64,000 bases of DNA, from contig NZ_CP058579.1 in the NCBI RefSeq assembly GCF_013402875.1, positions 930,001 through 994,000 on the forward strand. Direction: 5' to 3'. The position numbers and the translations under genes are program-made. Each line of letters begins with the position of its first letter. Position 1 is the first letter of the stretch. This DNA comes from Halorarum salinum (GTDB lineage: Archaea; Halobacteriota; Halobacteria; Halobacteriales; Haloferacaceae). Under the pieces are notes generated by a model, which was given only the letters and a program-made list of their open reading frames with translations, did not search any database and was not told the origin of the DNA. This document shows, piece after piece, positions 11,257 through 29,422 of the stretch.

Positions 11257-11257
11257 A

Positions 11258-11788
11258 TCATTTCACCCTGGTTGGAGCTGCTGGAAGTTCAAGTAGTATC
11301 GGGATGACACGAGAGAGTGGCATAACGGGATTTTCCGGGAGTCGAACGTCGAATATTCCGGCAAACACGACGGATAGAACGAGCGGGAGGCCGACGGAGA
11401 TGAGAGCGATAATCCGGTAATCCGTCTCGCCCGAGTATCGGAGCAGGACGATGAGGAACAGGGCGGAAGCGATGAGGAATCCTAGAGTCGAGAGGCTGGC
11501 GACGAACAGCAGCAACAGCGCAGAAACCGTTGCGACAGTCTTCGCTGTCGACCGCGGAACCTCGTAGCGAACCTCCGTACCGCGTCTAATCGACAGGAGT
11601 AACTGGACAACTGAGAGAATCGCGATTCCAGCCAGGATAAGCCGCGGGAAGAACGCAGGACCGGGATCTGCTTCAGGTGGGCGACCCGAGACCAGTTGGC
11701 CGCTTAACGCGAACACCCCGATCGACATGAGTATCAAGAGCAGCGATCCTAGCTTTTCGGCGTGTCGTATCGTGATCGGTTGTGACAT
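11258..11788 (-). CDS. tctB: Tripartite tricarboxylate transporter, small membrane subunit
   Basis: A 176-residue protein with four predicted membrane helices (about 12-30, 43-60, 80-105 and 120-150), matching the TctB/DUF1468 layout. The N-terminal RHAEKLGSLLLILMSIG and central VSALLLLFVASLSTLGFLIASALF fit the family. It is the accessory membrane subunit required with TctA. It lies between tctC and tctA on the same strand: the gap to tctC is 66 bases and to tctA 1 base, the standard tctCBA order. Confidence 0.9.
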   Translation of the reverse strand: MSQPITIRHAEKLGSLLLILMSIGVFALSGQLVSGRPPEADPGPAFFPRLILAGIAILSVVQLLLSIRRGTEVRYEVPRSTAKTVATVSALLLLFVASLSTLGFLIASALFLIVLLRYSGETDYRIIALISVGLPLVLSVVFAGIFDVRLPENPVMPLSRVIPILLELPAAPTRVK

Positions 11789-11854
11789 AGGGTGCGTGAC
11801 GGAACTGGGTATGTTAGCAAAGATGGCTCAGCGGACCACGAATTGATATCGAGA

Positions 11855-12859
11855 TCACATACCTAACTCGTCAGTGAGGTCCTGGAATCGCTGGTAGTCC
11901 TGTTCCCAGAACTCCCCGAACTCCTCGGTATCGCGATAGATCGTTCCGAAGCCCTGTTCTGACATGAACGATTGGAACTGGTCGGTTTGGAACGCCTCAT
12001 AAAAGACGTCGTGGAGGAACTCGATTCGATCGTCCGGCGTTTCTGCTGGCACGGCGATACCGCGCCATGCCCCTAACGTGAAGTCGTACCCCTCCTCTTG
12101 CAACGTCGGAACATCCGGGAAATTGTCGTGCCGTTCGCTTTCCATGACGGCCAATAATTCGAGCGGGCCGTCCTCAACCTGTGGAGCGACCTCCGGGACG
12201 CTTGACGTCGTTGCATCCATTTCCCCGTTGACAACCGCTGTGGTCGCAGGTCCACCTCCGTCGTAGCCTACGTAATCTAACTCGATGTCGGCCTCGAGTT
12301 CGAATCCGACACCAGCGAGATGCCAAATTCCGCCCTCGCCGTCCGTGGAAACTTGAATCTCGCCGGGGTTGTTCGCTGCGTACTCGACGAACTCCTCGAG
12401 CGTGCCGTATGGTGCGTCCTCGTGAACAGCAATCCCTGCAGGATCGGAATTGAACTGCATGACGGGCTTGAAGTCATCTGGAGTGATGTCTGCAATCCCG
12501 AGCGGCTTGAAGATGCTCAACCCGATGGTCGCAATGCCGATTGTGTAGCCGTCAGGCTCCGAGTTCTTCCACTCGGTGAACCCTGTCACGCCACCGCCAC
12601 CGGTAACGTTCGTCACGTACATCGACGCATCCAGCTCTTCATCGGCGACGTCCACAATCTGGCGGCCGACCCGGTCTGTTCCCCCGCCCGCTGGGAACGC
12701 AACGATGACCTCGATATCCTCTGACGGATATTCGTCGTCACCCGTCATACAACCGGCGAGCGACAGCGTTACACCCGCGCCTGTAGCAGTCAGAAAGGAT
12801 CTGCGATCAGTGACAGTAATATTTCTACTCGGCCGTTGTGGTGAGCGATCATTCCCCAT
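11855..12859 (-). CDS. tctC: Tripartite tricarboxylate transporter substrate-binding lipoprotein
   Basis: 334 residues from ATG 12859. The frame is open to 12982, but a TATA-like element at 12883-12890 sits about 27 bases before 12859, fixing a leaderless start. The N-terminus has a Tat motif (DRRSFLTATGAG) and lipobox (LSLAGC), so it is exported folded and lipid-anchored. The mature part matches the Bug/TctC fold: VIVAFPAGGGTDRVGR, a PDGYTIGIAT stretch, and LQEEGYDFTLGAWRGIAVP. It captures the carboxylate substrate outside the cell for TctAB. First gene of the tctCBA operon. Confidence 0.93.
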   Translation of the reverse strand: MGNDRSPQRPSRNITVTDRRSFLTATGAGVTLSLAGCMTGDDEYPSEDIEVIVAFPAGGGTDRVGRQIVDVADEELDASMYVTNVTGGGGVTGFTEWKNSEPDGYTIGIATIGLSIFKPLGIADITPDDFKPVMQFNSDPAGIAVHEDAPYGTLEEFVEYAANNPGEIQVSTDGEGGIWHLAGVGFELEADIELDYVGYDGGGPATTAVVNGEMDATTSSVPEVAPQVEDGPLELLAVMESERHDNFPDVPTLQEEGYDFTLGAWRGIAVPAETPDDRIEFLHDVFYEAFQTDQFQSFMSEQGFGTIYRDTEEFGEFWEQDYQRFQDLTDELGM

Positions 12860-12882
12860 AGTAACTATCGCCAAATGGTCTT

Positions 12883-12890
12883 CTATAAAC
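12883..12890 (-). promoter_or_regulatory. TATA-like element of tctC
   Basis: Plus-strand ctataaac (minus-strand gtttatag). Its centre is about 27 bases from the tctC ATG, the archaeal spacing for a leaderless mRNA. Confidence 0.6.
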
Positions 12891-13335
12891 GTTCTGGTTG
12901 AGTGATCGTCGACCCCCTTTGGGGAGTTCGATACGTTTCTGTCACGAATGTGACTGCCTCTCACGGTCATCGACCCGAGCACTCACAATGCGCTGAAACT
13001 ACGATTTTTACTGAATCCGGGTCTCCTCGTGTTCCTTCCGAAGAGATCAACGAATGCAATCGCCTCCTCCGTGAGGGTTCAGGACAGGTACCACTCGTCC
13101 GAGCGAGAAATACGGTTCGAGGTCCGGTCGGGATTGTCGAGACATCCGACGAAAACTGCTTCAGCGATGCGGCTACGCTGCGCCTCGTGGCTGGAGTTCC
13201 GGGGGTGGACGAGTGAGTCGACGGCGTCGATCCGTTATACCGTCTCCTCTATGAGTGCGTTCTTATGGTTATTTGAACTACCATCTCATCATTGGGTTCT
13301 CTCAGTAATGCGGTTCCGGTACATGCGATTGCCCA
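12891..13335. other. Intergenic region
   Basis: Between the tctC promoter and the 3' end of an enolase-family gene on the same strand. A frame at 12902-13216 on the plus strand gives partly protein-like sequence towards its end but has no recognised domain, no clear promoter and no partner; it is left unannotated. Terminator signals for the enolase gene are not obvious. Confidence 0.35.
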
Positions 13336-14445
13336 CTACCCGATCCGGTACTGTTCGAGTTTCCCCTCGTCGACCGAGACGCCGAGTCCAGGGCCGTCAG
13401 GGACCGCCATCGTCCCCTCGGAGACGGTGAGTGGGTTTTCGAGCAGGTAGTCCTCCCAGGCAGGGTACACCGTATCCACCGCGAGGTTGATCGCCGTCGT
13501 ACTCGCTACAGCGTGCAATACGGCAGCCTTCTTGATCCCGAGGTCGAACCCGTCGTGGTGGGCCACCGAGATCCCATGTTCGGCGGCGACAGCGGCCTGT
13601 GATTTGAGTGCGAGAATACCACCCGCCGGGACGAGATCGACGACTGCGACGTCGATCGCGTCCTCGCCGAGAAGGTGCGAGAGGTTTCGCGGGAAATACG
13701 CGTCCTCGTTGATCCCGATCGGCGTCGAGAGACGGTTCCGAAGCCGCTTGTACGTTCCGAACGTATCGATGCGGACCGGTTGCTCCAAGTACTGAAGATA
13801 TATCCCGGCGTCTTCCAATCGAGCACCGACGCGAACCGCATCCTCGAAGGTCCACCCCTGATTCGGGTCGAGCCGGAACTCCAGGTTCCCATCGACCTCC
13901 TCGTGCATCGCAACGACCCGCTCTACGTCCGTCTGCCAATCACGCCCAGCTTTCAGTTTGAGGACATCATACCCCTGATCGAGCGCCATTGAGGCGTACG
14001 TTCGCGAGCGTTCCGGACTGAGGATCCCGAGCGTACTCGCAACGGGAACGTGGTCGGATGCCTTCCCGCCAAGGAGTCGGTGAAGCGGTGCGTCGAGATG
14101 CTTTCCCAGGGCGTCCCACATCGCCATCTCGACACCGGCGATGTAGGAATTGAGATCGAGATACTCGTAGTGAAACCCGCTGACGAACGACTCGATCTCC
14201 CACACAGAGCGGCCAATGACCTGCGGGATTACGTCGTTTCTGAGGAGCCCCATCGTCGATTCGACCGAAGGAGAGGGTCGAATCTCCCCCCAGCCTTCGA
14301 TACCAGTCTCCGTACAGAGACGAATCAGTACCCGTTCCACTCGTTCAACCGAGGAGAACTTGCCCTGATATGGCGCGATTCCGCCGTCTTCCAGCGAGTC
14401 TACGTTCATCTCGACTGGGATCACATCTACATCCGTTACTTCCAT
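13336..14445 (-). CDS. Mandelate racemase/muconate lactonizing enzyme family protein
   Basis: A 369-residue enolase-superfamily enzyme. The lysine motif KLKAG lies on strand 2 of the barrel, metal ligands are in LDPNQGW, QYLEQP and GINED, and a probable Asp-His pair is in VAVVDLVPAGG and SVAHHDGFDLG. The KxK plus D-H pattern is that of the mandelate-racemase branch, in which acids are racemised or dehydrated, rather than the muconate branch that uses a second lysine. It probably acts on a sugar acid or hydroxy acid. It lies downstream of the second peptide transporter on the same strand, with a 215-base gap. Confidence 0.88.
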   Translation of the reverse strand: MEVTDVDVIPVEMNVDSLEDGGIAPYQGKFSSVERVERVLIRLCTETGIEGWGEIRPSPSVESTMGLLRNDVIPQVIGRSVWEIESFVSGFHYEYLDLNSYIAGVEMAMWDALGKHLDAPLHRLLGGKASDHVPVASTLGILSPERSRTYASMALDQGYDVLKLKAGRDWQTDVERVVAMHEEVDGNLEFRLDPNQGWTFEDAVRVGARLEDAGIYLQYLEQPVRIDTFGTYKRLRNRLSTPIGINEDAYFPRNLSHLLGEDAIDVAVVDLVPAGGILALKSQAAVAAEHGISVAHHDGFDLGIKKAAVLHAVASTTAINLAVDTVYPAWEDYLLENPLTVSEGTMAVPDGPGLGVSVDEGKLEQYRIG

Positions 14446-14660: not shown

Positions 14661-15680
14661 TCATGACTGCTCCAGGGGGTGATAACACGCGACGTCGCGG
14701 TCCGACTCACCCCTCGAGATCAGCGCGGGTTCCGACTCCTTGCACTCCTCGGTCGCGTACGCACAGCGCGGGTGGAATCGACACCCGGTGGGGATATTAG
14801 TGGGACTTGGGACCTGTCCCTCCAGTTTCCCCCACGAGCGGGTCGCGTCAGGATTTGGATTGGGAACCGACTCGAGTAGTGCCTCCGTGTACGGATGAGC
14901 AGGTTCGTGGATTACCTCGTCGGTCGGTCCGGACTCCACGATGTTACCGAGGTACATGATCATCGTCCGGTCGGCGAGATAGTTGATCGTCGAGAGGTCG
15001 TGGGAGATATACAGGATCGACAGGTCCCGCTCCGCCTGCAAGCGCTCGAACAGGTGGAGAATACCGGTTCGCACGCTCACGTCCAGCATGGACACCGGTT
15101 CGTCTGCCACCAGGAAATCCGGATCGAGGATGATCGCACGGGCGATGCACACCCGCTGTCGCTCCCCGCCGGACAGCTCACCCGGTAGTTTATCGAGATA
15201 CTTCTCGGGTGGGGCGAGTCCAACTTCCTCGAGCGTTTCGATCGTCCGATCGGTTCGGGACTCCCGATCGCCGATTCCGTGTATCTTCAGGGGTTCGGAA
15301 ACGATCCGAGCGACGGGGAACCGTGGGTTCATCGCTTCGTACGGATCCTGAAATATCACCTGTGCCTTCCTCCGGAACTCGTTCATCTCGGCTTTCCCGA
15401 ACTCCGTCAACTCCTCCCCGTCGAAGAGAATCCGCCCGCCGGTCGGTTTCTGTAACCCGACGAGGAGTTCCCCGAGCGTCGATTTCCCACAGCCGCTCTG
15501 TCCCGCGAGCCCGACGATTTCACCACGTTCGATGGTGAAATCCACGTCGTCGACTGCTTTGAGATAGTCCGGCTCGGAGAACAGGGTCGAAAGTATCGAT
15601 CCTTCTCCCTGAGACGCGAACCACTTGCGGAGGTCCTGTACTTCGAACAGGTTCCTCGACTGAACTTCCGTGCTCGACAT
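14661..15680 (-). CDS. dppF: Peptide ABC transporter ATP-binding protein, DppF type (second system)
   Basis: 339 residues from ATG 15680 (MSSTEVQSRN), one base after the dppD stop; the frame is open further upstream but only shadows dppD. Walker A GQSGCGKST (60-68), signature LSGGERQR (169-176), Walker B FLVADEP (189-195), and the C-terminal CRFHPRCAYATEEC cysteine motif of oligopeptide transporters. It is the last gene of a five-gene minus-strand operon (binding protein, DppB, DppC, DppD, DppF). It is a clear paralogue of the gene at 2365-3420. Confidence 0.93.
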   Translation of the reverse strand: MSSTEVQSRNLFEVQDLRKWFASQGEGSILSTLFSEPDYLKAVDDVDFTIERGEIVGLAGQSGCGKSTLGELLVGLQKPTGGRILFDGEELTEFGKAEMNEFRRKAQVIFQDPYEAMNPRFPVARIVSEPLKIHGIGDRESRTDRTIETLEEVGLAPPEKYLDKLPGELSGGERQRVCIARAIILDPDFLVADEPVSMLDVSVRTGILHLFERLQAERDLSILYISHDLSTINYLADRTMIMYLGNIVESGPTDEVIHEPAHPYTEALLESVPNPNPDATRSWGKLEGQVPSPTNIPTGCRFHPRCAYATEECKESEPALISRGESDRDVACYHPLEQS

Positions 15681-15681
15681 C

Positions 15682-16710
15682 TTACTGCTCCCCCTCAACT
15701 GCGAGCCAAACATCGGACGATTCTCCACGCTGCCTGAACTCGGTTGCCTGATCTGTGTAGTGGCACTTTGCCCGTTGCCCATCACCCACGTCCACGGTCG
15801 GCGGTTCGACGGAGTCACACTCCTGTGTGGCAAACGGACAGCGGGCCTTGAACCGACAGCCCATCGGTGGATCCCGGAGATCCGGTGGTGACCCCGGGAT
15901 ACTCACCAGACGTGACTTACTGCTCCCACGCTCCAGTGATGGGAACGCGTTTTTCAGACCGATCGTGTACGGATGATTGCTGTTGTTGAACACGGACGAC
16001 GTACGCCCGAACTCCATTACTCGTCCCCCATACATCACCGCGATCTTGTCTGCGACTTCGGCGACGACGCTCATGTCGTGGGTGACGAGGACGATCGCAC
16101 AGTTCACCTCGTCTTGAATCTCGGACAGGAGCTTGAGAATCTCGTCTTGAATGACGACGTCGAGGCCAGTCGTTGGCTCGTCCGCGAGGATGAGGGAGGG
16201 TTCGAGTGCAAGCGCGAGCGCGATCACGGCACGCTGCCGTTGCCCACCCGAGAGTTCGTGCGGGTAGTCGTACAGCCGTTCGGAATCGAGCCCAACGTTG
16301 TTCAGGAGCTCTTCGGCCCGGTCCATCGCATCCCGTTCCGACGCCTCGGTGTGTGTCTGAATCACCTCGACGATCTGTGATCCGATGCGGTACACCGGAT
16401 CGAGCGACGCCATCGCGTTCTGTGGAATATACGAGATCTCCTTCCACCGTATCCTGTCGTTCAGTTCCTCGTTGGAGAACTGGGTCAGATCATCCCCCTT
16501 GAATCGGAGCTCGCCGTCCGCGACCGATCCGTTCGAATCGAGAATATCGATGAGTGATTTGATGATCGTCGATTTTCCGCTACCGCTCTCGCCGACGATG
16601 CCGAGAGTTTCCCCCGGTTCGACGGATAGGTCGACCCCATCGACTGCCCTGATGGTCGCTCCGTCTTCCTCGTACACAACGCCCAGATTCTCTATTTCGA
16701 GTAGTGTCAT
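15682..16710 (-). CDS. dppD: Peptide ABC transporter ATP-binding protein, DppD type (second system)
   Basis: A 342-residue ATPase with Walker A GESGSGKST (40-48), signature LSGGQRQR (153-160), Walker B LILADEPT (173-180), and THDMSVVAEV H-loop. The C-terminal CRFKARCPFATQEC motif is the oligopeptide-transporter domain. It is paralogous to the gene at 1314-2372. It is preceded by dppC with a 9-base gap and followed by dppF with one base, so the set is one transcription unit. Confidence 0.93.
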   Translation of the reverse strand: MTLLEIENLGVVYEEDGATIRAVDGVDLSVEPGETLGIVGESGSGKSTIIKSLIDILDSNGSVADGELRFKGDDLTQFSNEELNDRIRWKEISYIPQNAMASLDPVYRIGSQIVEVIQTHTEASERDAMDRAEELLNNVGLDSERLYDYPHELSGGQRQRAVIALALALEPSLILADEPTTGLDVVIQDEILKLLSEIQDEVNCAIVLVTHDMSVVAEVADKIAVMYGGRVMEFGRTSSVFNNSNHPYTIGLKNAFPSLERGSSKSRLVSIPGSPPDLRDPPMGCRFKARCPFATQECDSVEPPTVDVGDGQRAKCHYTDQATEFRQRGESSDVWLAVEGEQ

Positions 16711-16719: not shown

Positions 16720-17634
16720 TTACCTGATCTGCGGGTTGGTTACGTCTTCGATGCCACGGGAGATGTAGAAGAACGAGACGACGAGCGCCGTAATGCTCAG
16801 GCCCGGGGGGAGAACCCACCACCAGGCGACGGCGATTGCGCCACTCGAGAAGGTGAGCTGTAGCATGACCCCCCAACTCATCATCTCCGTCGCCCCAAGC
16901 CCCAGGAACGATACTCCGGCCTCGAGCAAAATGGCCGATCCCATCACGAACGTCCCTTCGACTAACATTATCGGCACGAGAATGGGGGCGATGTGGAGAA
17001 ACATGATGCGGAAGTCGCTCGCCCCGGCTGCCCGCGCAGCTTTCACGAACGGCTGTTCCGACAACGACATCGTCTCCGACCTGATGAGACGGGCCGCTGT
17101 ACGCCACAGGACCAGTATCATCGCGATGATAACTGTCCAGACCGAACTGCCATAGAACAAGGCCACCACCAGGACGAGTGGCGTCGCGGGGATCGCATAG
17201 AGGATATCCACGACGCGCATGAGCACCAAGTCGACGATCCCCTTGTAATACCCGGCGACGAGTCCGACGGTGGTTCCGATCATGATGACGGATAATCCGG
17301 AGAGGAACCCAACCAGTAACGAGACACGGCTCCCGTAGATCCACTGGCTCATGATGTCCTGTCCGAGGTGATTCGTTCCCATGGGAAACTCGGCACTCGG
17401 TGACTGTAGCGTCGCGACCCCCCCGTCCTCCGCGTATACCGTCTCCGTTGGTTCGTACGGTGCCAGGAATGGTGCGAAGATGGCCATGAACAGGGTGATC
17501 CCAACGATAGTCGCGCCGATCACTGCCATCCGATTCTGTCGGAAGACATCGATCGCTTCGACTAACCGTGACCGATAGTGGTCGAATTGGATCTGCTGGC
17601 TCGTGGAGAGGTTGTTCAGGACGGATCCGATCAT
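16720..17634 (-). CDS. dppC: Peptide ABC transporter permease, DppC type (second system)
   Basis: A 304-residue permease with about six membrane helices. The EAA loop is AARAAGASDFRIMFLHIAP, followed by a GVSFLGLG helix and the same WWWVLPPG segment seen in the first system. The hydrophilic N-terminus (LSTSQQIQFDHYRSR) is typical of DppC. The start overlaps the end of dppB by 4 bases (17631-17634). It forms the import channel with DppB. Confidence 0.92.
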   Translation of the reverse strand: MIGSVLNNLSTSQQIQFDHYRSRLVEAIDVFRQNRMAVIGATIVGITLFMAIFAPFLAPYEPTETVYAEDGGVATLQSPSAEFPMGTNHLGQDIMSQWIYGSRVSLLVGFLSGLSVIMIGTTVGLVAGYYKGIVDLVLMRVVDILYAIPATPLVLVVALFYGSSVWTVIIAMILVLWRTAARLIRSETMSLSEQPFVKAARAAGASDFRIMFLHIAPILVPIMLVEGTFVMGSAILLEAGVSFLGLGATEMMSWGVMLQLTFSSGAIAVAWWWVLPPGLSITALVVSFFYISRGIEDVTNPQIR

Positions 17635-18623
17635 GCTTCTACCCCCGTGTCCGCGACCCGCGGATCGACATATACGGACAGGATGTCCACGAGGAAGTTA
17701 AGCACGATTATCGCCACGGAGATGATCGTGAAGGCTCCCTGGGCGACGGGGTAATCGCTGGCCCGGACAGCCGTCCACATCGCCTGCCCGACACCCGGCC
17801 AGGAGAACACCGTTTCGAGGATGATCGACCCTCCGAACGCGAAGCCGAACGCGAGCGCCATGTAGTGGACGAGCGGGAGGAGTGCGTTCCGGGCTCCATG
17901 CCGGTACATGATGCTCCGTTCAGGGATCCCCTCGGCCCGCTTTAGCTTGATGAAATCCGAGCCGATGAGATCGATCATGTTGTTCCGCATGATCAGCGTC
18001 GGTTGACTCAACCGCCAGAGCGCGAAGATCGCGATCGGAAGGATGGCGTGCCTGAGGAATTCGACCGAGAAAAAGCGGTCGAGCAACGAGATCTCCGTGT
18101 ACGTCGCGGAGTGCATCCCGGCCGCAGGTAGCCAGCCGAGCCAGAACGAGAAGACCATAATGCTGAGCATTCCCGTCCAGAATATCGGCGCTGCGAACGC
18201 AACCAAGACGAGTCCCGTCCCGTACGAGTCGAGACTCTCGTTCCGGTTCCACGCGAAGTTTGCTCCGATGAACGGCCCAAATGTGAACGCCAACAGCAAC
18301 GCCGGCACCGTGATCGAGAGTGTATTTAACGTTTTGTTCAATAGGAACGGAAGCACAGGACTCCCGTGCTGGAACGAGATCCCGAGGTTCCCCTGTGCTA
18401 CATTCTGGAGATAGATGATGTACTGTACATGTAGCGGTTCGGTGAGGCCATGCTGTTCGAGGATCGCTTGGCGGTCTGCCTCAGAAAAGCGTGGTGAAAC
18501 GAGTTGGCTGGCCGGGTCCCCTGGCATTAGCCTGAAGAGCACGAACAGAAGGGTGATTACTGCGAATAGGGATACGAGCATCAGCCCAAAACGCTGTAGG
18601 ATAAATTTCGTTTTCTGGTTCAT
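17631..18623 (-). CDS. dppB: Peptide ABC transporter permease, DppB type (second system)
   Basis: A 330-residue permease. N-terminal helix at about 10-30, the conserved RLMPGDPASQL after it, large periplasmic-type loop, then five further helices; the EAA loop is LKRAEGIPERSIMYRHGARN. It ends in FSWPGVGQAMWTAV and DILSVYVDPRV, like DppB. It follows the binding-protein gene by 88 bases and overlaps dppC. Together these components import peptides or related solutes. Confidence 0.93.
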   Translation of the reverse strand: MNQKTKFILQRFGLMLVSLFAVITLLFVLFRLMPGDPASQLVSPRFSEADRQAILEQHGLTEPLHVQYIIYLQNVAQGNLGISFQHGSPVLPFLLNKTLNTLSITVPALLLAFTFGPFIGANFAWNRNESLDSYGTGLVLVAFAAPIFWTGMLSIMVFSFWLGWLPAAGMHSATYTEISLLDRFFSVEFLRHAILPIAIFALWRLSQPTLIMRNNMIDLIGSDFIKLKRAEGIPERSIMYRHGARNALLPLVHYMALAFGFAFGGSIILETVFSWPGVGQAMWTAVRASDYPVAQGAFTIISVAIIVLNFLVDILSVYVDPRVADTGVEA

Positions 18624-18711: not shown

Positions 18712-20430
18712 TCAGTCATCGACGCTAACGTATTCCGATGAGGGCTCCCAGTCGACGGGCTTCAGAAGCGTGTCACCTTCGTATCGGAATCCGCTTTCCT
18801 CAAGCAACGACCGTGCCTGCTGAACGTTGAAATCGTAGCTCTCTACGTCTTGGTTGTGATACTGTTCGTTCGCTGGCGCGACTGGCGACTTTGCGGTCTC
18901 GGCATAGCCCTGATGAACCGTCTGAACGAGTTCAGTTTTGTTGATTGCGTACGCACATGCGCGCCGCACAAGAACATCGTTAAACGGTTCGTTGTTCGTA
19001 TTGAACCAGACTGCGTTGGCGGCGATGGAGGGGTTTTCGATGGCTTCCGCGGTATCACTGTCCTTGGCTCGTTGCCAGTCAGTGTTCCCCAACCCCTGCG
19101 TGAATGTCGCGTCGCCTCCAATAACGTCACCAACCGCTGTTGAGTTCGTCCCGTAGATGTTGTAGACGATTTGGTCGAAGTCGTACTCGTCCGCGTGATA
19201 GTGGTCCTCGTGTTTTTCGAAGACGACTCGATTCCCGGGCTCGTAGTTTGTCATCTGGAACGGCCCGCTCCCGGTCATATCCGGGTTTTCCCACTGGCCG
19301 GGGTTGTCAATGTCCTCTTCCTCGGTGATTCCATCCCAAACGTGTTGTGGAAGAATTGGAACACGATATAGGCTCACGGGAATGAATCCGGCAAAGGGGT
19401 TCGCTAGATTAAAACGTACCGTGCGATCGCCAACGAGTTCGGAACTGTCGTATGGCTGGATGTCGGACGCGAGATACGGGATGCCGTGCTCGGTCGCGAA
19501 ATCCCAGGTGAACATGACGTCCTCCGGCGTAACAGGCTCACCGTCGTGCCAGGTCATCCCCTCGCGAAGAGTCACGTCAATCGTGGTGTCGTCGACGACC
19601 TCCCAATTCTCCGCTGCTCCCTCGGCGATCGGCTCGCCGGTCGTATCCATCTGAACTAGCGGATCGTAGTTCAGTTTGTGCAGGAAGACGGCTTCTGGTC
19701 CCGTGTGGGACATGAAGTTCGGATATTGTTCAGGCGGTGAGTTCGTCGCAAAGATTACTACGCCGTCACCTCCCTGCCGCTCGGCAGTTTTCAATGTTGT
19801 TGGATTGAAATATGCCCACTCACCCACCATCGGTTCCCACCCAGTATACAGTTCAGTATTATGCGCTATTAGCGATGAAGGATGTGTGGTGAAGGTACAG
19901 GGAACGTTCTGCGCGATAATCTCCTGACAGCGGAACGCAAACTCCGCTCGCTTCTGGTCGTCCATCTCACTGGCGAAATTCTCAACCGCTTCATCGTATT
20001 CCTCACTCTCGAAATTCGTGAAATTCCCCTTATCAGGACCTGCATATTGGGAGTGGAAGCTGAAGTAGAGGTTGTAATATGGGAAGAGCCTCTCAACGGT
20101 ATTTGACCAGCCGAGATTTGCGATGTCATAGTCCTTCGCGAAGAGCGTGTTTACCCATTGGCCGGATTCATATACGTTCTCCTCAAAGGAGAAGCCAATT
20201 TCCTCTAGCATCCCTTGGGTTTGCTGAGCCTCCTCGTAATATGCCGGATTATCCTCCCGAGAGAGTGTTAGCCAGGTAAAACCACTAACTTCCTCGTATT
20301 CTACATCGGGATCCGGTGAAAGCGTATCTTGCGATCCGCCACCATTGCCGGTTCCCTGACAGCCGGCAATTCCGACGAATGATCCTGCTATCGCTGCTCG
20401 CTTCAGGAAGTCACGCCTGTGCTTAGGCAT
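18712..20430 (-). CDS. Peptide ABC transporter substrate-binding lipoprotein, apparently circularly permuted
   Basis: 572 residues from ATG 20430. Tat motif RRDFLKRAAIAG and lipobox IAGC (Cys24) mark an exported lipoprotein. Normal SBP_bac_5 proteins begin with the YDPLV...GEPIAEGAAENWEV...WHDGEPVTPEDV block; here that block lies at residues 222-311. Residues 50-210, with an LEEIGF motif, a YDIANLGWSN block and TELYTGWEP, correspond to the usual C-terminal third of the family. The protein ends at YDFNVQQARSLLEESGFRYEG, the point where that third would normally follow. Total length is normal. This is my reading of motif order; the canonical start at TTG 20442 is less likely than the ATG with a TATA element 27 bases away. 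Confidence 0.85.
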   Translation of the reverse strand: MPKHRRDFLKRAAIAGSFVGIAGCQGTGNGGGSQDTLSPDPDVEYEEVSGFTWLTLSREDNPAYYEEAQQTQGMLEEIGFSFEENVYESGQWVNTLFAKDYDIANLGWSNTVERLFPYYNLYFSFHSQYAGPDKGNFTNFESEEYDEAVENFASEMDDQKRAEFAFRCQEIIAQNVPCTFTTHPSSLIAHNTELYTGWEPMVGEWAYFNPTTLKTAERQGGDGVVIFATNSPPEQYPNFMSHTGPEAVFLHKLNYDPLVQMDTTGEPIAEGAAENWEVVDDTTIDVTLREGMTWHDGEPVTPEDVMFTWDFATEHGIPYLASDIQPYDSSELVGDRTVRFNLANPFAGFIPVSLYRVPILPQHVWDGITEEEDIDNPGQWENPDMTGSGPFQMTNYEPGNRVVFEKHEDHYHADEYDFDQIVYNIYGTNSTAVGDVIGGDATFTQGLGNTDWQRAKDSDTAEAIENPSIAANAVWFNTNNEPFNDVLVRRACAYAINKTELVQTVHQGYAETAKSPVAPANEQYHNQDVESYDFNVQQARSLLEESGFRYEGDTLLKPVDWEPSSEYVSVDD

Positions 20431-20534: not shown

Positions 20535-22124
20535 TCACGAACGCAGTGCCCGGCCGGGCGTTCGATTGGTAACTGCACTGTCGCGGACGACAAATACTCC
20601 GTTAACAAGAACGCTATCAATACCATTTGCTGTCCGGGTTGGCTGATCGACCGTAGCGGAGCTTGAGATAGTTTCTGGATTAAACATAACTAAATCTGCA
20701 TCGAATCCTGGCCGAACGATCCCCTTGTTTTGGAGATGAAAAATACGTGAGGGTAGCGAGGTCATTTTTCTCACTGCTTCTTCAATCGAAAGGAGATTCG
20801 TGTCGCGAACATAGTGCCCCAGGATTCGAGGGTATGTCCCGTAGGTCCGAGGGTGAGGTTTCTTACCGAACATACCATCGGAGCCAATTCCGACGAGGTC
20901 ATCCGATAAAACTGATCGAATGTCTTGCTCTGTTGTTTCCTTTTGTTCAGACAAATTTACTATCCCGACTTTGAATTCATTCTTAAGAAGAATGTCACAT
21001 ACAAGTAAAGCCGGATGTTGGTTACGTTCTGATGCTGCTTCGAGAATGGTTTTCCCAAGAACGTCCTCAGAGTCTTCGGAATCAACGTGGCAAAGAAGGA
21101 CATTCTTCCAGTTTAGGTTCCACGGACCCACACCTTCCGAAAGTGACTGTATCAGCTCCGTACGCGTTTCTTCATCTTTTAGACTCGCTCTGAGTTCGGC
21201 CCCGGTCATGGAGTGGTACCGTCGGGGGAGGAGAGTGAACAGGTTTCCACTCCCAGGTACAAAGGGATAAACGTCCGCAGTAAAGTCGATGTCTCGTTCC
21301 CGAGCTGATCGGACTATATGAAGTGCTCGTTCTGAGAGTCCTCGCTTCGCCCCTCCCAGCTTAAAGTGTGAGAGGTGGACAGGAATACCCTCGCTTTCTC
21401 CAATGTCGACAAATTCATCAAGGGCATTCCACATTTTGTCACGATAACTCCGTATGTGGGCGACGAATGGAAGACCAGACGATGCGAGTTGTCCAGCCAA
21501 TTGTTGGATTTCTTCAGTTGCAGCATAACATTGGGGCGTATAGTCTAATCCCGTGGAAAACCCGACTGCACCGTTTTCAATAGCGTTACTCACCATTTCC
21601 TGCATTTTCTGGAGTTCATCGTCGGATGGCTTTCGATTATCCATTCCCATCACGTTTGCCCTTATCGTCCCGTGACCAACCAACGTAGCTATGTTCGCCC
21701 CGGCTCCATTTTTATCGATGGCATCGAGATAATCTGCGATTGAAGGCCAAGTCCTTCGGTCAGAAATATTTGGATAAAAACCTCCAAGAAACCGCCACCA
21801 TGAGTCGAGATTGGCGTCTGAACATGTTGGTGCCATGGAGAACCCATCTTGCCCGACGATTTCTGTGGTAACACCCTGAGTGATTTTTGGGGTTATTGTT
21901 GGGTCAGTAAACGGTTCAAGGTCTGCATGTGAGTGCAAGTCAATGAAACCCGGGCAGACAACCTTCCCCTCCGCTTCCACTTCACACGAAGCTGTAAGGT
22001 CATGTGATGTTCCCCTCTTCACATGGCTTATCCTTTCCTCTTCGATTCCAATACAACCTTCAAACCAGGGTGAACCTGTTCCGTCAATAATCCGCGCACC
22101 TTCTATTAGTACATCTAGTGACAT
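20535..22124 (-). CDS. N-acyl-D-amino-acid deacylase (D-aminoacylase family)
   Basis: A 529-residue amidohydrolase. Metal motif DLHSHAD with H64 and H66; the segment GQDGFSMAP at about 91-99 replaces the GNCG-type cysteine of classical D-aminoacylases by Asp93; further ligands are in VAHIRSYRDK, VHLSHFKLGG and GIGSDGMFGK. The C-terminal PSRIFHLQNKGIVRPGFDADL is the usual closing of the beta-sandwich domain. It would release free D-amino acids from N-acyl derivatives or D-residue peptides. The gene is AT-richer than its neighbours and lies upstream of the peptide transporter on the same strand with its own promoter. Confidence 0.87.
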   Translation of the reverse strand: MSLDVLIEGARIIDGTGSPWFEGCIGIEEERISHVKRGTSHDLTASCEVEAEGKVVCPGFIDLHSHADLEPFTDPTITPKITQGVTTEIVGQDGFSMAPTCSDANLDSWWRFLGGFYPNISDRRTWPSIADYLDAIDKNGAGANIATLVGHGTIRANVMGMDNRKPSDDELQKMQEMVSNAIENGAVGFSTGLDYTPQCYAATEEIQQLAGQLASSGLPFVAHIRSYRDKMWNALDEFVDIGESEGIPVHLSHFKLGGAKRGLSERALHIVRSARERDIDFTADVYPFVPGSGNLFTLLPRRYHSMTGAELRASLKDEETRTELIQSLSEGVGPWNLNWKNVLLCHVDSEDSEDVLGKTILEAASERNQHPALLVCDILLKNEFKVGIVNLSEQKETTEQDIRSVLSDDLVGIGSDGMFGKKPHPRTYGTYPRILGHYVRDTNLLSIEEAVRKMTSLPSRIFHLQNKGIVRPGFDADLVMFNPETISSSATVDQPTRTANGIDSVLVNGVFVVRDSAVTNRTPGRALRS

Positions 22125-22591: not shown

Positions 22592-24088
22592 ATGGGTGCG
22601 AATGAACGTCCAGCGGAGTATGGCCTCCCTGACAATGAATATGGACTGTACATCGAAGGGGAGTGGAGACAAGATTCGTCAAGGGGGACGAAACGAGCCA
22701 CGAGTCCTGCCACGGGGGAGCCGATCGGTTCGATCACGATGGGAACTGCGGACGACGTAGCCGACGCCGTCGAAGCTGCAAGTACCGCCCAAGCAGAACT
22801 CGAGTCGATGACCGCATTCGAACGTGCAGATCTAGTCCACGAACTAGCCGACGCTATCGAATCGCGGGTTGACTCACTGGCCGTCTGGCTGTCTGCCGAT
22901 CAGGGTAAACCGATCAACGAGGCACGAATCGAACTGGAACTGGCAGCAGAGATGTACCGCGATGCGGCGGAGAACGTCAAGCGCGCGGGCGGCTCGACGA
23001 TCCCCGCCGAAAACCCTGACAAGCGCATCTTCACGATTCGGCAGCCACACGGTGTCTATGGCGTCATCACGCCGTGGAACTTCCCCGTGACCATCCCAAG
23101 CGAGTATCTCGGGCCGGGAATCGGCGTCGGGAACGCGGTCGTATGGGTACCCGCACCGACGACCTCGGTGATTTCCGCGAAGCTGGTGGAGGCATTCTCG
23201 GATACCGCGCTTCCAGATGGAGCACTCAATCTCGTTACTGGCGAGGGTCCCGTCGTGGGGGAGGCCGTAGTGACCCATCAGGGGACCGATGCGGTCGGAT
23301 TCACCGGCAGTCCAGAGACGGGCGACCTCGTCGCCAGGAACGCGGGCGCCAAACCGACGCTGCTCGAACTTGGCGGCAACGGTCCGGTGATCGTGCTCGA
23401 TGACGCCGACCTCGACAGGGCAGCCGAGAGCGTAGCGAACGGTTGTTTCACCAACGCGGGGCAGATTTGCACGGCGAGCGAACGCATTCTCGTTCACGAG
23501 GACGTCCACGCGGCGTTTCGCGAACGGCTACTCCAACACACCGAGGACGTCGTCCTCGGTCACCCGTTAGACGAGACGACAGATATGGGGCCGCTCAACA
23601 ACAGGGACGTCGCCGAGAAGATGGAGACTCACGTTGACGACGCCGTCTCCCACGGTGCCGAACTGCTCCACGGGGGCTCGCTCGCGACCGATCAACCGAC
23701 CGAGCTCTACTACGAACCGACGGTGCTGGACGACGTCACCCCGGAGATGCTGACCAACGAGCAGGAAACGTTCGGGCCGATTGCGCCGATCATCACGTTC
23801 GACGACTACGACGAGGCAATCCGGATTACCAACGGTATCGAGCTAGGGCTCTCGAGCGGCATCTTCACGGAGAATATCTCGAAGATGTACTACTTCGCCG
23901 AGCGGATCCAGGCCGGCCTCATTAATATCAACGAGGGGAGTGCACACTGGGAGACCCACACACCGGTCGGTGGTCACTCCGGCACGAACAGCGGTGTCGG
24001 GCGAATCGGCGGTCGGTACACGATCGACGAGATGAGCCAGATCAAGAACGTAACCGTGGATATCGATGGCGACTGGGAGCGATCCTGA
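22592..24088 (+). CDS. NAD(P)-dependent aldehyde dehydrogenase
   Basis: 498 residues, normal for the family. PWNFP (161-165) is in the coenzyme domain, FTGSPETG (237-244) follows, the general base Glu259 lies in LLELGGN, and the nucleophile Cys293 in NAGQICTASER. The residue that is normally the lysine of the KPxxxTP motif is valine (WVPAPTTS), so coenzyme binding may differ. It oxidises an aldehyde to an acid. It converges on a D-threonine-aldolase-like gene whose expected product is acetaldehyde plus glycine, so acetaldehyde is a plausible substrate. Confidence 0.9.
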   Translation: MGANERPAEYGLPDNEYGLYIEGEWRQDSSRGTKRATSPATGEPIGSITMGTADDVADAVEAASTAQAELESMTAFERADLVHELADAIESRVDSLAVWLSADQGKPINEARIELELAAEMYRDAAENVKRAGGSTIPAENPDKRIFTIRQPHGVYGVITPWNFPVTIPSEYLGPGIGVGNAVVWVPAPTTSVISAKLVEAFSDTALPDGALNLVTGEGPVVGEAVVTHQGTDAVGFTGSPETGDLVARNAGAKPTLLELGGNGPVIVLDDADLDRAAESVANGCFTNAGQICTASERILVHEDVHAAFRERLLQHTEDVVLGHPLDETTDMGPLNNRDVAEKMETHVDDAVSHGAELLHGGSLATDQPTELYYEPTVLDDVTPEMLTNEQETFGPIAPIITFDDYDEAIRITNGIELGLSSGIFTENISKMYYFAERIQAGLININEGSAHWETHTPVGGHSGTNSGVGRIGGRYTIDEMSQIKNVTVDIDGDWERS

Positions 24089-24130
24089 CTGCGCATCGAA
24101 CCCTCCCGTCCCGGACTCGTTCTTTGTTTT

Positions 24131-25252
24131 TCAGGCGCGGACAGTCCACACGTCCTCGACGAGACCGTCGCGCATCCCGACCACTCTCTCGTGGAGGTTG
24201 ATTGTGGTGCAGACGTGCGGAACGATGAATTCGAGTCGGTCTCCTACCTCGATACTCTGGTCTGTCCCACCGATATCGATCCACCCGTGTTCCTCCGAAG
24301 CGTTTCGATAGGCGATATCGTCCCTCCCGTTCGGGATGGGATCGCAGTCGAGATCGAACGACATCGCCTTGCTCCCCGCATCGACGACGACTCTCTCGTC
24401 GGTCGGTTTCGAGATGACCGTTGTCAGCATCGTAAGCGCACAGTCTGTCTCCTCCACCGGACCGTTCCACGAGAGGACGTTTGCATCGTTGAACGGGTAC
24501 ATCCCCGGGTTGATCTCGGTCACGACCGGGTGCTTACCGCTGTATCTCGACGTCCCGGTTGACCCGACTTTCACTCCGTCGACGGGGATTCCGTCTCCTT
24601 CGAGTCGCTCGACCATCGCCTCGACGCTGTCCATGGCTTCCAGACACCGACGCTCGTAGTCGCCTTCCGAGTCCGCGAGGGTATTGATGTGCCCCTCGTA
24701 GGCCATGACACCTGCGAAATTGAGGTTCTCCGCCTCGACGATCGACCTGGCCAGCTCGAGCGCTTTCTCTCCTGGTTCGACCCCGACTCTGTTGAGGCCG
24801 ATGTCGAGCTCGAGGACGGTGTCGATCGATCTCCCGTGGCGTGCGCCGGCCTCCTGAAGCGGTTCGATGTTGCCGGGACAGTCGACCGTCGTCGCGAACG
24901 AGTCGATCGATTCCGAGAGCCTGACGAGTCGATCGAGTTTCGACCTGGTGACTACCATGTACGACAGGTAGATGTCCGAAAGCCCGTATTCTGCCATGAC
25001 CTCTGCCTCGTGTAACGTCTGGCAGATGATTCCCTCGTTCCCCGACAGCGCTTCCTGCCTACGTGCGAGCACAGGGCTCTTGTGCGTTTTCACGTGGGAA
25101 CGAAGCGCGACGTCGTGCTCCCTCGCGAAGGACGCGAACTCGGACATGTTCGCTTCCATCGTCTCGAGATCGACGAGAGCTACCGGCGTTTCCAGCTCCT
25201 CCCGTGATTGACCGGGTTCTGGCGACCCATTGTTCGGTGCTGTGAACGTCAT
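24131..25252 (-). CDS. D-threonine aldolase / D-serine dehydratase-like PLP enzyme
   Basis: 373 residues from ATG 25252 (MTFTAPNNGS); the longer frame to 25348 adds unrelated basic residues. Fold type III PLP enzyme of the alanine-racemase-like group: the PLP lysine is in RSHVKTHK (Lys55), and the metal site of this subgroup is visible as HVC in IVPHVCTTINL near the C-terminus, with EEHGWID before it. Members cleave D-threonine or hydroxyaspartate or dehydrate D-serine, with a divalent metal. A paralogue lies at 56580-57719. A minus-strand TATA-like ataatt near 25290 may be the promoter. Confidence 0.87.
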   Translation of the reverse strand: MTFTAPNNGSPEPGQSREELETPVALVDLETMEANMSEFASFAREHDVALRSHVKTHKSPVLARRQEALSGNEGIICQTLHEAEVMAEYGLSDIYLSYMVVTRSKLDRLVRLSESIDSFATTVDCPGNIEPLQEAGARHGRSIDTVLELDIGLNRVGVEPGEKALELARSIVEAENLNFAGVMAYEGHINTLADSEGDYERRCLEAMDSVEAMVERLEGDGIPVDGVKVGSTGTSRYSGKHPVVTEINPGMYPFNDANVLSWNGPVEETDCALTMLTTVISKPTDERVVVDAGSKAMSFDLDCDPIPNGRDDIAYRNASEEHGWIDIGGTDQSIEVGDRLEFIVPHVCTTINLHERVVGMRDGLVEDVWTVRA

Positions 25253-25478
25253 GAGTACAGGGATGACTTCGCGCAGGACCTCATAATTGTGGTCGTGAAT
25301 TCCCCTCGCTGGCGGCGCCGGACGTCTTCTCTCCGAGAGCCATTGCACGCCGGCGTATCACCACGTCTTCTCAGTAATCCGACCGCCCGTTCGCTCAGTA
25401 ATCGACGAAGCGGGGATCCTGTAACTCACTCACGATTCGACACGTCTCGACTGCATCGGACTCCCACCAGAGCGCTCT

Positions 25479-26693
25479 CTATCCTTCGAAGTCGATTACG
25501 TGGGCACGGATGCGGTCGACTACGTGGCGCGCCTCATCTGTGGTGAGCGTCTTTGGAACGATCCGAAACACCCCCTGATTGAGCGTTTGTTCGCCGACGA
25601 AAATCCGGGGGTTCTCTGCACGGAGTCGTCTGATCAGCGTCTCGATGTCTAGTTCCTCCGTGGATTCGAGGCCGACGTGGAGAACAGTGACTGTGTCCGG
25701 CTCGTCCTCGTTGCATACGGAGACCACCAGTCCGTCGATTTCTCGCAGTTTCTTCATCAAGAAGGAAGCCCGTTCGTTCCATTCCCGCAGTACCTCGCTC
25801 TCGTCTTCCTCAAGGAAGAGTTCCAGGGCACGAATCAGGCCGACTAGCTCCTCCTTGCCGACTTTCATCGGGCGGCCGATGCCATGGCGAGGCATCCCCG
25901 GAACCGAGTCCGGGTCGATCAACGACCGAGGCGGGTCCCAGAGGTCCTCATGGGTGCCAGACGGGAGGTGCTGAAGGGCGACGGACTGGACCAGCTCCGC
26001 GCGACCGGCCAGAATCCCGGTCGTCTGTGGGCCTCGAACGGCCTTCCCGCCACTGAATGCGACCAAGTCGGCTCCGACGTCGATGTATCGGCGCAGATTC
26101 TCCGTCGGCGGTAGTTCCGCGGCCGCGTCGACGATCACAGGGACGTCACGTTCGTGAGCGACGTCGATGACGCTCTGGAGCGACAGCTGGTTGTGGGGGC
26201 GATCGACGTACGTCACCGCTGCGGTCGAATCAGTAATCGCTGCGGCCACTTCCCAGGGCTCGACACTCTCGAGGCCGTTACCGAGGTCGTTCATCCCCGC
26301 CGATACGAGACGTGCACCCGCGACGCGGTACGCGACTTCGTACTCATTGCGATGAGCACACGGGATGACCACTTCGTCGGGGACGTCGTCGGTACGCGGA
26401 AGGGTGTTCATCACCTCGTAGTCGTTGTCCGCGATACATGCGGCCGTACCGAGCGTCAGTGCCGAGGCAGCTCCGTTCGTCACGTACCCCGCCTCGGCAC
26501 CCGTCGCCTCCGTGATCAACTCTCCCGCACGCGACTGGAGGTCCCCGAGGTGAACGTACGCATTCGCGGCACGTCGCATGGCGTCTGCGGCCTCCGGTCG
26601 CATCAGCGTCCCGCTGATTCTGGTTTGCTCCCCAGCACAGTTGATTACAGTCGGGACGCCTAGCTCGTCATAGACCGTGGATTGACTGCTCAT
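25479..26693 (-). CDS. SelA-like PLP-dependent lyase/aminotransferase
   Basis: 404 residues of the fold-type I group related to L-seryl-tRNA selenium transferase and to sugar-amino-acid ammonia lyases. The PLP lysine is in VAFSGGKAVRGPQTTG; VIVDAAAELPPTENL supplies the cofactor aspartate. The opening DELGVPTVINCAGEQTRISG and SRAGELI are typical of this branch. No selenocysteine machinery lies in the window, so a role in beta-elimination of an amino acid, releasing ammonia, is more likely. The nearest same-strand neighbour is the D-threonine-aldolase-like gene. Confidence 0.82.
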   Translation of the reverse strand: MSSQSTVYDELGVPTVINCAGEQTRISGTLMRPEAADAMRRAANAYVHLGDLQSRAGELITEATGAEAGYVTNGAASALTLGTAACIADNDYEVMNTLPRTDDVPDEVVIPCAHRNEYEVAYRVAGARLVSAGMNDLGNGLESVEPWEVAAAITDSTAAVTYVDRPHNQLSLQSVIDVAHERDVPVIVDAAAELPPTENLRRYIDVGADLVAFSGGKAVRGPQTTGILAGRAELVQSVALQHLPSGTHEDLWDPPRSLIDPDSVPGMPRHGIGRPMKVGKEELVGLIRALELFLEEDESEVLREWNERASFLMKKLREIDGLVVSVCNEDEPDTVTVLHVGLESTEELDIETLIRRLRAENPRIFVGEQTLNQGVFRIVPKTLTTDEARHVVDRIRAHVIDFEG

Positions 26694-26860
26694 TGGTCGT
26701 GGTTGCTACTACCGTGGTAGACTAACCAGCCTATAATTGTTCCGCCGAACCGATGTAACGGCACACGTCTGTGACGGAACTGGACCAGACGTTGACTGGG
26801 TCACTCCTGTCGGAACCTGTCACTGGTCGGAAAACGAGCAAGGTAGTAACCGAGAGCGGC

Positions 26861-27709
26861 TTATGACCGATTACGCTCGTACACGTCTCGTAGTAACGAC
26901 TCCAGTTCGTCGCCGAGGCGGTCGTAGAGCTGCTCTCCCTTTTCTGCGGATGCGTGTTCGGGACTCCCGATCGCACCTGTCGTGGAGTACTCCTCGAACC
27001 CTCGATACACGGCGAGTGGCCCGCCCTCGAACATGTCCTTGATTCCCTCCTCGTACGGCTCGTCCATTGCCGTACCTGTGAGCTCGTTTTCACGGACGAG
27101 GTCCTCACGGAGGTGGAGCATCAGTGACGTCTCGAATTCGCCGCCGTGGCCCATCCCCCCGATCTCGCTGTCCCGAATCTCGTCGATGAACCGGCTTGCG
27201 AGTCGGAAGTACGTCAGTCCGAGTACCTCCACATCGTCGTACTCCGAACCGATCGTGCTGACTGCACCATTGACGAGCGAGGTGTTTCCCCCGTGACCGT
27301 TCAACAGCAGGAGCGCATCGAACCCGTTTTCGAGCGCCGTTCCCGCAATGTCCTCGAGTATCCGATGCATGTGGTCGAATTCGAGGGAGACCGTCCCTCC
27401 GAACGAGAGATGATGTGGCGAGTATCCACACCAGAGGGTGGGAAGCATCAGGATTGGGACGTCCTCCTCTACACGCGCCACGCCGAGGGCCGCGATCTCG
27501 GAAACGAGGACCGAATCAGTCGATACGGGAAGATGGTCCCCGTGTTGCTCCATACTCCCGATCGGAACGACGAGAACGGACCCGTCTTGCGAACCGACAT
27601 CGCGAATTTCGTCGGCAGTAAGGTCCCTCCAGGAGTTGCTGCCGACAGTTGCTACGGTGGAGTGCACAGTACCGTCCTCATCGACCGGTGGTAAAGAGGT
27701 TATCCCCAA
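26861..27709 (-). CDS. Creatininase family protein (second copy)
   Basis: About 282 residues; the N-terminus is uncertain because the first 25 residues are unlike the family and an internal start could be used. The fold motifs are complete: GSMEQHGDHLPVSTD with its metal-binding E, H and D, LLNGHGGNTS, and GHGGEFETSLML, the glutamate motif that the copy at 3417 lacks. It should be an amide hydrolase. It lies upstream of the SelA-like gene with a 167-base gap and diverges from the aminotransferase gene. Confidence 0.85.
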   Translation of the reverse strand: MGITSLPPVDEDGTVHSTVATVGSNSWRDLTADEIRDVGSQDGSVLVVPIGSMEQHGDHLPVSTDSVLVSEIAALGVARVEEDVPILMLPTLWCGYSPHHLSFGGTVSLEFDHMHRILEDIAGTALENGFDALLLLNGHGGNTSLVNGAVSTIGSEYDDVEVLGLTYFRLASRFIDEIRDSEIGGMGHGGEFETSLMLHLREDLVRENELTGTAMDEPYEEGIKDMFEGGPLAVYRGFEEYSTTGAIGSPEHASAEKGEQLYDRLGDELESLLRDVYERNRS

Positions 27710-27769
27710 ACCGTTCCGCTCGAATCCGATATGCGAGACCGTGCTCGAATCTGTTGCGAGGCTGCGGAA

Positions 27770-27780
27770 ATTTTATTAAC
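27770..27780 (+). promoter_or_regulatory. TATA-like element of the aminotransferase gene
   Basis: attttattaac, centred about 26 bases before ATG 27801, supporting a leaderless start. Confidence 0.6.
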
Positions 27781-27800
27781 ATCCTTGGTAACGGTTCTCC

Positions 27801-29204
27801 ATGGATGAGCCTTCAGCGGTGGAGCCATCGGTATCGGAGGGGACGTACGAATCGTACGGAGCGCTCGGTCTAGACTCGTTTTCCCGGTCACTGACCCTGC
27901 AACGCAAGGCGGAAGAAGAGATTCCTGAAGCGACGTCATCCAATCACCGTGGGAAAGGCTCCTACGCACCGTATCCGATGATCTACATGGAGGAGGGCAA
28001 CGGTGCCGAACTCACCGACGTCGATGGAAACTCGTACATCGACTTTCACTGCGGTGTCTCCGCGATCATCAATGGCCACGGGCCGGAAGCGCAGGAGGAG
28101 GCAGTAAAGCGTCAGGTCGAACGTGGTCCGTACTTCGCTACCACCTACGAACTCGAGTACGAGACCGCGAAACTGATGAACGAACTCGTGCCCGGAAGCG
28201 ACCTGACCAAATTCATCAGCACCGGAACGGAGGCAGTAATGAGTGCGTTGCGGCTCGCACGGGCGTACACGGGTAAAGAGAAGGTTCTCAAATTCGAAGG
28301 GATGTATCATGGGCACACCGACTACGCACTCGTGAACGTTCATCCGACCGTCGAGAATCTCGGAACGGGACGAAATGCGACGAAGATCCCCGAGACGGCG
28401 GGAGTCCCCGGATCGACCCTCGAGGCCGTCGAGACGGTTCCGTGGAACGATACGACGCTGCTGGAGGAGAAACTCGAGCGCCAGGGCGACGAGATCGCTG
28501 CTGTCATCACCGAAGCCGTGATGAGTAATAGTGGACTCCTCTGGCCGCAGGATGGATACCTCGAGGATCTCCGCCGATTGACCCGCGAGCACGATGTACT
28601 GCTCATCCTGGACGAGGTCGTCACCGGGTTCAGAATGGGCCTGCACGGCGCACAGGGGTACTTCGATATCGAACCTGACCTCTCCATCTTCGGCAAGGCC
28701 ATGGCCAACGGCTACCCCTGTGCCGCGTTGACTGGACGGGAGGACGTGATGCGCTTCCTCGAGTCTGGGCCCGATAAAGCAACGTTCATGGGAACGTTCT
28801 CCGGAAATCCGCTCGTCGTTGCAGCAGCACACGCGAACCTCGAACTGTTGAACAGCGTCGGGGAACGCGGCTACGCGGACCTGTATGAGCGGGGGGAGCG
28901 ACTGACCGAGGGCTTCGAAGAAATTCTGACTGATGCAGGCCACGACGTCTTCATTCCCGAGTTCGCGGGATTCTTCTGTCTTCACTTCACGGACGGCGAG
29001 AGCGACCCGTCGCAGTGGCACGACTGGCGGGACATCTCCCCACATACCGATGCGGCGACTTACGAACAGTTCGCCAGCAGGATGGTGGGAGAGGGCATCT
29101 TCCTGCCCCCAAAAGGTGGTCGCATTAACCTGATGCACGCCCACACCGATGAACACATCGACGAGGCGCTGGAAGCGGCGAAAGAATCCATCTCCCACGT
29201 CTAA
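27801..29204 (+). CDS. Class III aminotransferase / glutamate-1-semialdehyde aminomutase-like
   Basis: 467 residues of the omega-aminotransferase group. GNGAELTDVDGNSYIDF opens the fold, DEVVTGFR (about 271-278) provides the PLP aspartate, and the Schiff-base lysine is Lys299 in FGKAMANGYP. TFMGTFSGNPL and the late NLMHAHTDEHID are typical of glutamate-1-semialdehyde aminomutase relatives. True HemL acts in haem synthesis, but the catabolic context favours a D- or beta-amino-acid aminotransferase/aminomutase. An N-terminal extension of about 50 residues precedes the domain. It is single-gene, diverging from the creatininase. Confidence 0.87.
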   Translation: MDEPSAVEPSVSEGTYESYGALGLDSFSRSLTLQRKAEEEIPEATSSNHRGKGSYAPYPMIYMEEGNGAELTDVDGNSYIDFHCGVSAIINGHGPEAQEEAVKRQVERGPYFATTYELEYETAKLMNELVPGSDLTKFISTGTEAVMSALRLARAYTGKEKVLKFEGMYHGHTDYALVNVHPTVENLGTGRNATKIPETAGVPGSTLEAVETVPWNDTTLLEEKLERQGDEIAAVITEAVMSNSGLLWPQDGYLEDLRRLTREHDVLLILDEVVTGFRMGLHGAQGYFDIEPDLSIFGKAMANGYPCAALTGREDVMRFLESGPDKATFMGTFSGNPLVVAAAHANLELLNSVGERGYADLYERGERLTEGFEEILTDAGHDVFIPEFAGFFCLHFTDGESDPSQWHDWRDISPHTDAATYEQFASRMVGEGIFLPPKGGRINLMHAHTDEHIDEALEAAKESISHV

Positions 29205-29422
29205 CTGGCCCTACACCCGACCGTGTGAGTTAGTCCCGAACTGGGAACTGGAGGACAACGACTCGACTTCGCGTGTACTTCGAGAAGATCGAGCGCCAAC
29301 GTCGGCCGAGGTCCGGCTGACACCGTGTAGGAATCCTCGATAACGACGCGTCCTAGTTTGAATCGTGCTGCGGGGAAGGCTCCACATTCCGATCGATGAC
29401 GAATATCTGTATCGTGGGTTCG

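Follow-up and report, generated by a model that had tools for sequence, protein, structure and literature searches.

The question raised by this locus is whether a solute-binding protein (SBP) of the SBP_bac_5 family can carry the last third of its chain in first place and serve as a component of an ABC importer. The window, meaning the whole stretch of DNA analysed, comprises 64,000 nucleotides of the Halorarum salinum genome, and the gene of interest lies on its reverse strand. A sequence-only reading of this DNA had proposed that a gene rearrangement moved the ends of the encoded protein while keeping its fold. As described below, this proposal is supported by sequence, by predicted structure, by orthologues with the same end points and by conserved operons.

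Chain order of the binding protein

The gene and the parts of its product are as follows.

18712..20430, reverse strand: coding sequence of the circularly permuted family-5 solute-binding lipoprotein, 572 aa (sequence, Pfam and doubled-model matches)
20359..20430, reverse strand: residues 1-24, Tat signal (RRDFLK) and lipobox with Cys24 (sequence)
20299..20358, reverse strand: residues 25-44, low-confidence linker from the lipid anchor to the new N-terminal block (AlphaFold2 pLDDT)
19822..20298, reverse strand: residues 45-203, block that is C-terminal in canonical relatives, model positions 354-494 of 508 (sequence and structure matches)
19783..19821, reverse strand: residues 204-216, new joint from the old C-terminus to the old N-terminus (sequence; between the doubled-model blocks)
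18760..19782, reverse strand: residues 217-557, block that is N-terminal in canonical relatives, model positions 5-340 of 508 (sequence and structure matches)
18712..18759, reverse strand: residues 558-572 and stop codon, short tail past the new C-terminus (AlphaFold2 pLDDT)

The ORF begins with MPKHRRDFLKRAAIAGSFVGIAGC, which includes the Tat motif RRDFLK and the lipobox GIAGC24 noted in the initial reading; an alternative TTG start is possible 4 codons upstream. Residues R5, A22, G23 and C24 are invariant across 20 homologues that share the same cut (type A, defined below). The motifs and approximate residue numbers quoted in that reading are correct, and the length of 572 aa is normal, as had been stated. 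The chain ends after ARSLLEESGFRYEGDTLLKP, precisely where the canonical C-terminal third would join, and no internal signal peptide is left in the sequence of the new joint (residues 204-216).

The only Pfam family matched by this protein is PF00496 (SBP_bac_5), at 232 bits versus a gathering cut-off of 32.4. The main match places residues 271-556 on model positions 5-286, and a genome-level search locates the remaining piece (model positions 287-362) in the N-terminal part, in the same frame. Swapped pairs are also obtained by phmmer against the PDB: on chain 5u4o, residues 223-549 align to 44-360 and residues 68-174 to 379-482, and the pairs for 5isu and 1xoc are similar. We also used 47 unpermuted homologues, excluding the permuted SBP itself, to build a canonical model with 508 positions. 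Residues 217-557 match positions 5-340 of this model (285 bits), and a second, out-of-order match places residues 59-203 on positions 354-494 (61.5 bits, E 3e-21 in a one-protein search). Thus, the claim that the C-terminal third precedes the N-terminal block is borne out by Pfam, 5u4o and canonical-model matches alike.

When the canonical model is doubled head to tail, a circular permutation should appear as one collinear match whose start gives the cut point, and canonical proteins span positions of about 510-1010 or about 5-505. The permuted SBP yields a single collinear match of residues 59-557 on positions 354-848 (358 bits), which is the outcome sought in proposing a permutation-aware alignment to the PF00496 family. 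The two blocks jointly cover the canonical model once, with no overlap. These sequence comparisons confirm the assignment of the protein as an SBP_bac_5/DppA-like Tat lipoprotein with a circularly permuted chain. Both the Pfam swap and the doubled-model match depart from the canonical N-to-C order over PF00496; because this order is customary and is not in the Pfam definition, we file the protein as a permuted variant of family 5.

It had also been expected that permuted members would be missed by profile coverage filters, and this expectation holds in part. The Pfam score remains above its cut-off, but the matches are partial and swapped, and none of the eight permuted proteins tested, which represent both cuts and include a Symbiobacterium protein, scores above the cut-off of any NCBIfam model. 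The DppA equivalog NF043070, for example, gives 99 bits for the window protein versus a cut-off of 1005. Annotated permuted members are labelled 'ABC transporter substrate-binding protein', and none of the annotated records examined mentions permutation.

Predicted fold, operon and candidate ligand

An AlphaFold2 model of the permuted SBP (31 sequences) has a pLDDT of 89.4 and a pTM of 0.87, with values below 50 for residues 9-35 and 568-572. When the full model is searched with Foldseek and VIA-align, only residues 216-562 are matched, to the first ~360 residues of family-5 SBPs, and all of the matches listed are family-5-type proteins. For DppA itself (1DPP), residues 223-550 align with residues 1-342, with a Z of 21.8 and an rmsd of 3.7 over 319 residues. 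This one-sided result might suggest two separate folding units, wherein the N-terminal block is a new domain and the canonical fold is not completed. We judge this very improbable, since a match to one block only is what permutation must give with sequential aligners. Moreover, when residues 44-215 are folded separately (pLDDT 74, moderate confidence), they match the C-terminal third of family-5 SBPs, at 356-521 of 5u4o (Z 9.2) and 337-500 of 1DPP (Z 8.2); Z scores of 8-9 are modest, and the listed rows are the family or close relatives. The single coverage of the canonical model by both blocks also argues against a new domain.

In these models, the 1DPP ranges matched by the two blocks appear complementary and nearly complete, in agreement with the comparison to DppA that had been proposed. 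No collinear canonical alignment was found, and the prediction is of one confident protein rather than two incomplete domains. The permuted chain is therefore predicted to keep the two-lobed cluster C fold, with the joint arrangement of the lobes read from the pTM and the complementary partial matches. A short loop at about residues 204-216 bridges the old N- and C-termini, and the new termini fall in the loop between helix ARSLLEESGF and strand TWLTL of the canonical C-terminal lobe. The differences concern the chain order and the site of the lipid anchor, which is attached via the second lobe and not the first. Because the two-lobed flytrap fold is predicted to be kept, the ligand probably binds between the lobes, and would then be delivered to the adjacent DppBCDF.

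The genes for this transporter follow directly after the permuted SBP gene on the same strand, and enzyme genes flank the set.

20535..22124, reverse strand: amidohydrolase, probably of the N-acyl-D-amino-acid deacylase kind, upstream (Amidohydro_3 and Amidohydro_1)
17631..18623, reverse strand: DppB-type permease (BPD_transp_1 and BPD_transp_1_N)
16720..17634, reverse strand: DppC-type permease (BPD_transp_1 and OppC_N)
15682..16710, reverse strand: DppD-type ATPase (ABC_tran and oligo_HPY)
14661..15833, reverse strand: DppF-type ATPase, true start probably inside the ORF (ABC_tran and oligo_HPY)
13336..14445, reverse strand: enolase-superfamily enzyme (MR/MLE), downstream (MR_MLE_N and MR_MLE_C)

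In most of the bacterial and archaeal loci retrieved with sufficient flanking sequence, the permuted SBP is likewise followed by permeases, usually together with ATPases. Comparison with two near orthologues gives dN values of 0.11-0.13 and 0.16-0.18, with dS about 1.5 or saturated, for both blocks. Both blocks are therefore under strong purifying selection. Because of the dppBCDF context and the low dN relative to dS, we read the protein as a working importer component, and, with its circularly permuted chain, it almost certainly serves as the substrate-binding lipoprotein of a DppABCDF-type ABC importer.

The same evidence bears on whether the gene is a pseudogene, formed by the chance fusion of two partial tandem SBP remnants or by chimeric assembly. 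Relatives do contain tandem SBP genes (L086, L098, L100 and L130), but the identical order and joint recur in many independent genomes, which refutes this reading. The selection on both blocks, the normal length with intact signal and lipobox, the retained operon and the single confident AlphaFold2 model also oppose it, and we give it almost no credence.

For the ligand of the importer, the reference is DppA, in which Arg383 binds the peptide carboxylate and Asp436 binds the peptide amino group (PMC12136057). The corresponding positions in the permuted SBP are listed below; the alignment region has about 20-25% identity.

20257..20259, reverse strand: Arg58, aligned to DppA Arg383 (alignment)
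20098..20100, reverse strand: Thr111, aligned to DppA Asp436, the Asp not being kept (alignment)

This pattern, together with the upstream amidohydrolase and downstream enolase-superfamily genes, leads us to guess that the ligands could be N-blocked amino acids or peptides (such as N-acyl-D-amino acids) and not free dipeptides. We consider the guess doubtful: identity in the aligned region is just about 20-25%, neither neighbouring enzyme reaches a specific NCBIfam cut-off or equivalog, and the operon of the best orthologue has no amidohydrolase within the stretch seen. The MR/MLE gene adjoins the transporter in Halobaculum magnesiiphilum too.

Other genes of the region are recorded here as separate observations. 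Positions 22592-34488 of the window are rich in amino-acid and amide catabolism genes, including those for an aldehyde dehydrogenase, BhcC-like and DgaE-like PLP enzymes, and aminotransferase-like and M81-like ORFs, and the second creatininase-like protein of the window is encoded at 26861-27709. In a Halobaculum plasmid region, creatininase, aminotransferase and M81 genes adjoin the orthologous SBP. Beside the enolase-superfamily gene, at 9778-12982 on the reverse strand, are putative tripartite tricarboxylate-type transporter genes (TctA-like and TctC-like), recognized from their sequences.

Spread and repeated origin of the permutation

We designate as 'type A' those proteins with the same cut as the window protein, for which the doubled-model match starts at about 333-370 in most and ends at about 840-855. 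Haloarchaeal homologues with the same end points, which the initial reading recommended searching for, include orthologues of 80% and 73% identity in a congener and in Halobaculum. Among the matches listed, more than 60 of 170 genomes of the same family have a type-A member. A genome scan and plasmid search also uncovered type-A members in Pseudomonadota (alpha, beta and gamma), Thermodesulfobacteriota, Deinococcota, Bacillota, Actinomycetota, Verrucomicrobiota and Thermoproteota, with several of these bacterial and archaeal members coming from metagenome-assembled genomes (MAGs). In the tree, the main set of type-A proteins groups as a single supported clade. The type-A cut is thus old and spans eight phyla, which refines the initial proposal, as the event is neither local nor recent.

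The genome of H. salinum itself encodes ten SBP_bac_5 proteins, of which five are canonical, four are type A (the others being L002, with 32% identity, L004 and L006) and one has a later cut, such that permuted proteins make up half of the family in H. salinum. The type-A protein L002 (G000:C1:927442-929094) is encoded immediately to the left of the window, ~20 kb away from the first gene, and is the SBP of a second transporter operon at 252-7101 on the forward strand of the window, which carries dppC, dppD and dppF as well as genes for creatininase-like, M20 dipeptidase and MBL-fold proteins.

The breadth of the type-A set also informs the possible cause of permutation. The authors of work on the Treponema protein TpMglB-2 speculated that permutation helps a tethered protein (PMC4990184), and selection might similarly have shifted the lipid anchor of family-5 SBPs to the other lobe. 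The permuted proteins of haloarchaea and monoderm bacteria are indeed lipoproteins with the anchor on the other lobe, but no lipobox is recognized by pattern in most permuted members from Pseudomonadota, in those from Thermodesulfobacteriota or in the one from Deinococcota; most type-A proteins of Pseudomonadota and relatives instead carry Sec- or Tat-like signals. We consider selection for an anchor shift unlikely, and we reject lipid anchoring as a general cause because so many bacterial type-A members have no lipobox. Neutral drift via duplication is a possible cause. No duplication intermediate, with the C-block at both ends, is present among 128 classified ORFs.

The type-A cut is not confined to a single origin. 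A protein from a Symbiobacterium MAG (L087:5815-7554) has this cut, a lipobox and a full dppBCDF operon, and it nests among canonical Bacillota proteins in the tree. When it is constrained to join the type-A clade, the log-likelihood falls by 80.5 units (AU p = 1.5e-6). Because of this nesting and the AU rejection, we conclude that it acquired the type-A cut independently, and the recurrence of this cut suggests a permissive site in the second lobe.

The later cut, 'type B', is represented by the paralogue L005 (G000:C1:3065595-3067229, outside the window), which matches positions 447-958 of the doubled model. Relatives with type-B order have 62-80% identity over residues 2-545 and occur in about 31 haloarchaeal genomes (including L183-L191). 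Most other genomes with a match to L005 have canonical orthologues (L192-L202), which match only residues 110-544, with 50-62% identity; the segment absent from this match (about 50 residues) lies at the C-terminus, with 49-63% identity. The type-B permutation is recent, and its unpermuted orthologues are still about 60% identical. The type-B C-terminus (AQNLPSEEN) and the beginning of the relocated segment (LPEPETREGYLQRAN) resemble each other over a short stretch. Although only suggestive, this similarity would be consistent with tandem duplication followed by trimming. The history of the type-B group may comprise one origin and one reversal.

Sporosarcina quadrami carries a divergent permuted SBP (L123:2494-4338) close to a canonical one. 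This is possibly a further independent event, but its long branch keeps it out of our count. We count three events with good confidence: an ancient one (eight phyla), a Symbiobacterium event with the same cut, and a recent haloarchaeal one at the later cut. The initial reading is thus extended, in that family-5 permutation occurred more than once and at two cut points. Family-5 SBPs probably constitute a fold with recurring natural permutation, in which the chain was permuted independently three times or more, with two different cut points.

Comparison with known systems

SBPs are among the best-studied protein families and are the base of many biosensors. Regardless, a whole permuted lineage is unlabelled in the databases. 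Coverage-based annotation and sequential structure searches detect only fragments of permuted SBPs. A type-A profile search of the PDB found no permuted chain among the matches listed, because every listed match has its best stretch in the canonical position. We found no report of permutation in SBP family 5 in the searchable literature, a coverage that excludes most subscription papers and preprints.

In the recent haloarchaeal type-B case, related genomes encode orthologues of both chain orders that are about 60% identical. Because such pairs exist, it is possible to test directly what permutation costs or gains a protein in folding, Tat export, anchoring and docking.

The window protein is homologous over its full length to the SBP_bac_5 proteins DppA, OppA, AppA and NikA (cluster C, PF00496), with the same predicted fold segments and a dppBCDF context, but its last third comes first and its new termini lie within the second lobe. 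Its operon has the same five-component layout as E. coli DppABCDF, whereas E. coli DppA is unpermuted and its Asp436 position is not conserved in the window protein (PMC12136057). The closest parallel in chain order is TpMglB-2 (Tp0684) of Treponema pallidum, a natural circularly permuted binding lipoprotein of an ABC importer, which is a functional permuted SBP designated 'Type Ic / Cluster Bc' (PMC4990184). However, TpMglB-2 is a member of the sugar-binding Type I, cluster B class, and its cut differs in that the first three N-lobe strands were moved to the C-terminus (PMC4990184). Natural SBP permutation was thus already known for the Type I class, with TpMglB-2 as the sole precedent found. 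In family 5, nature appears to have relocated the termini of a large three-segment flytrap protein while keeping its transporter, a change that engineers make by design.
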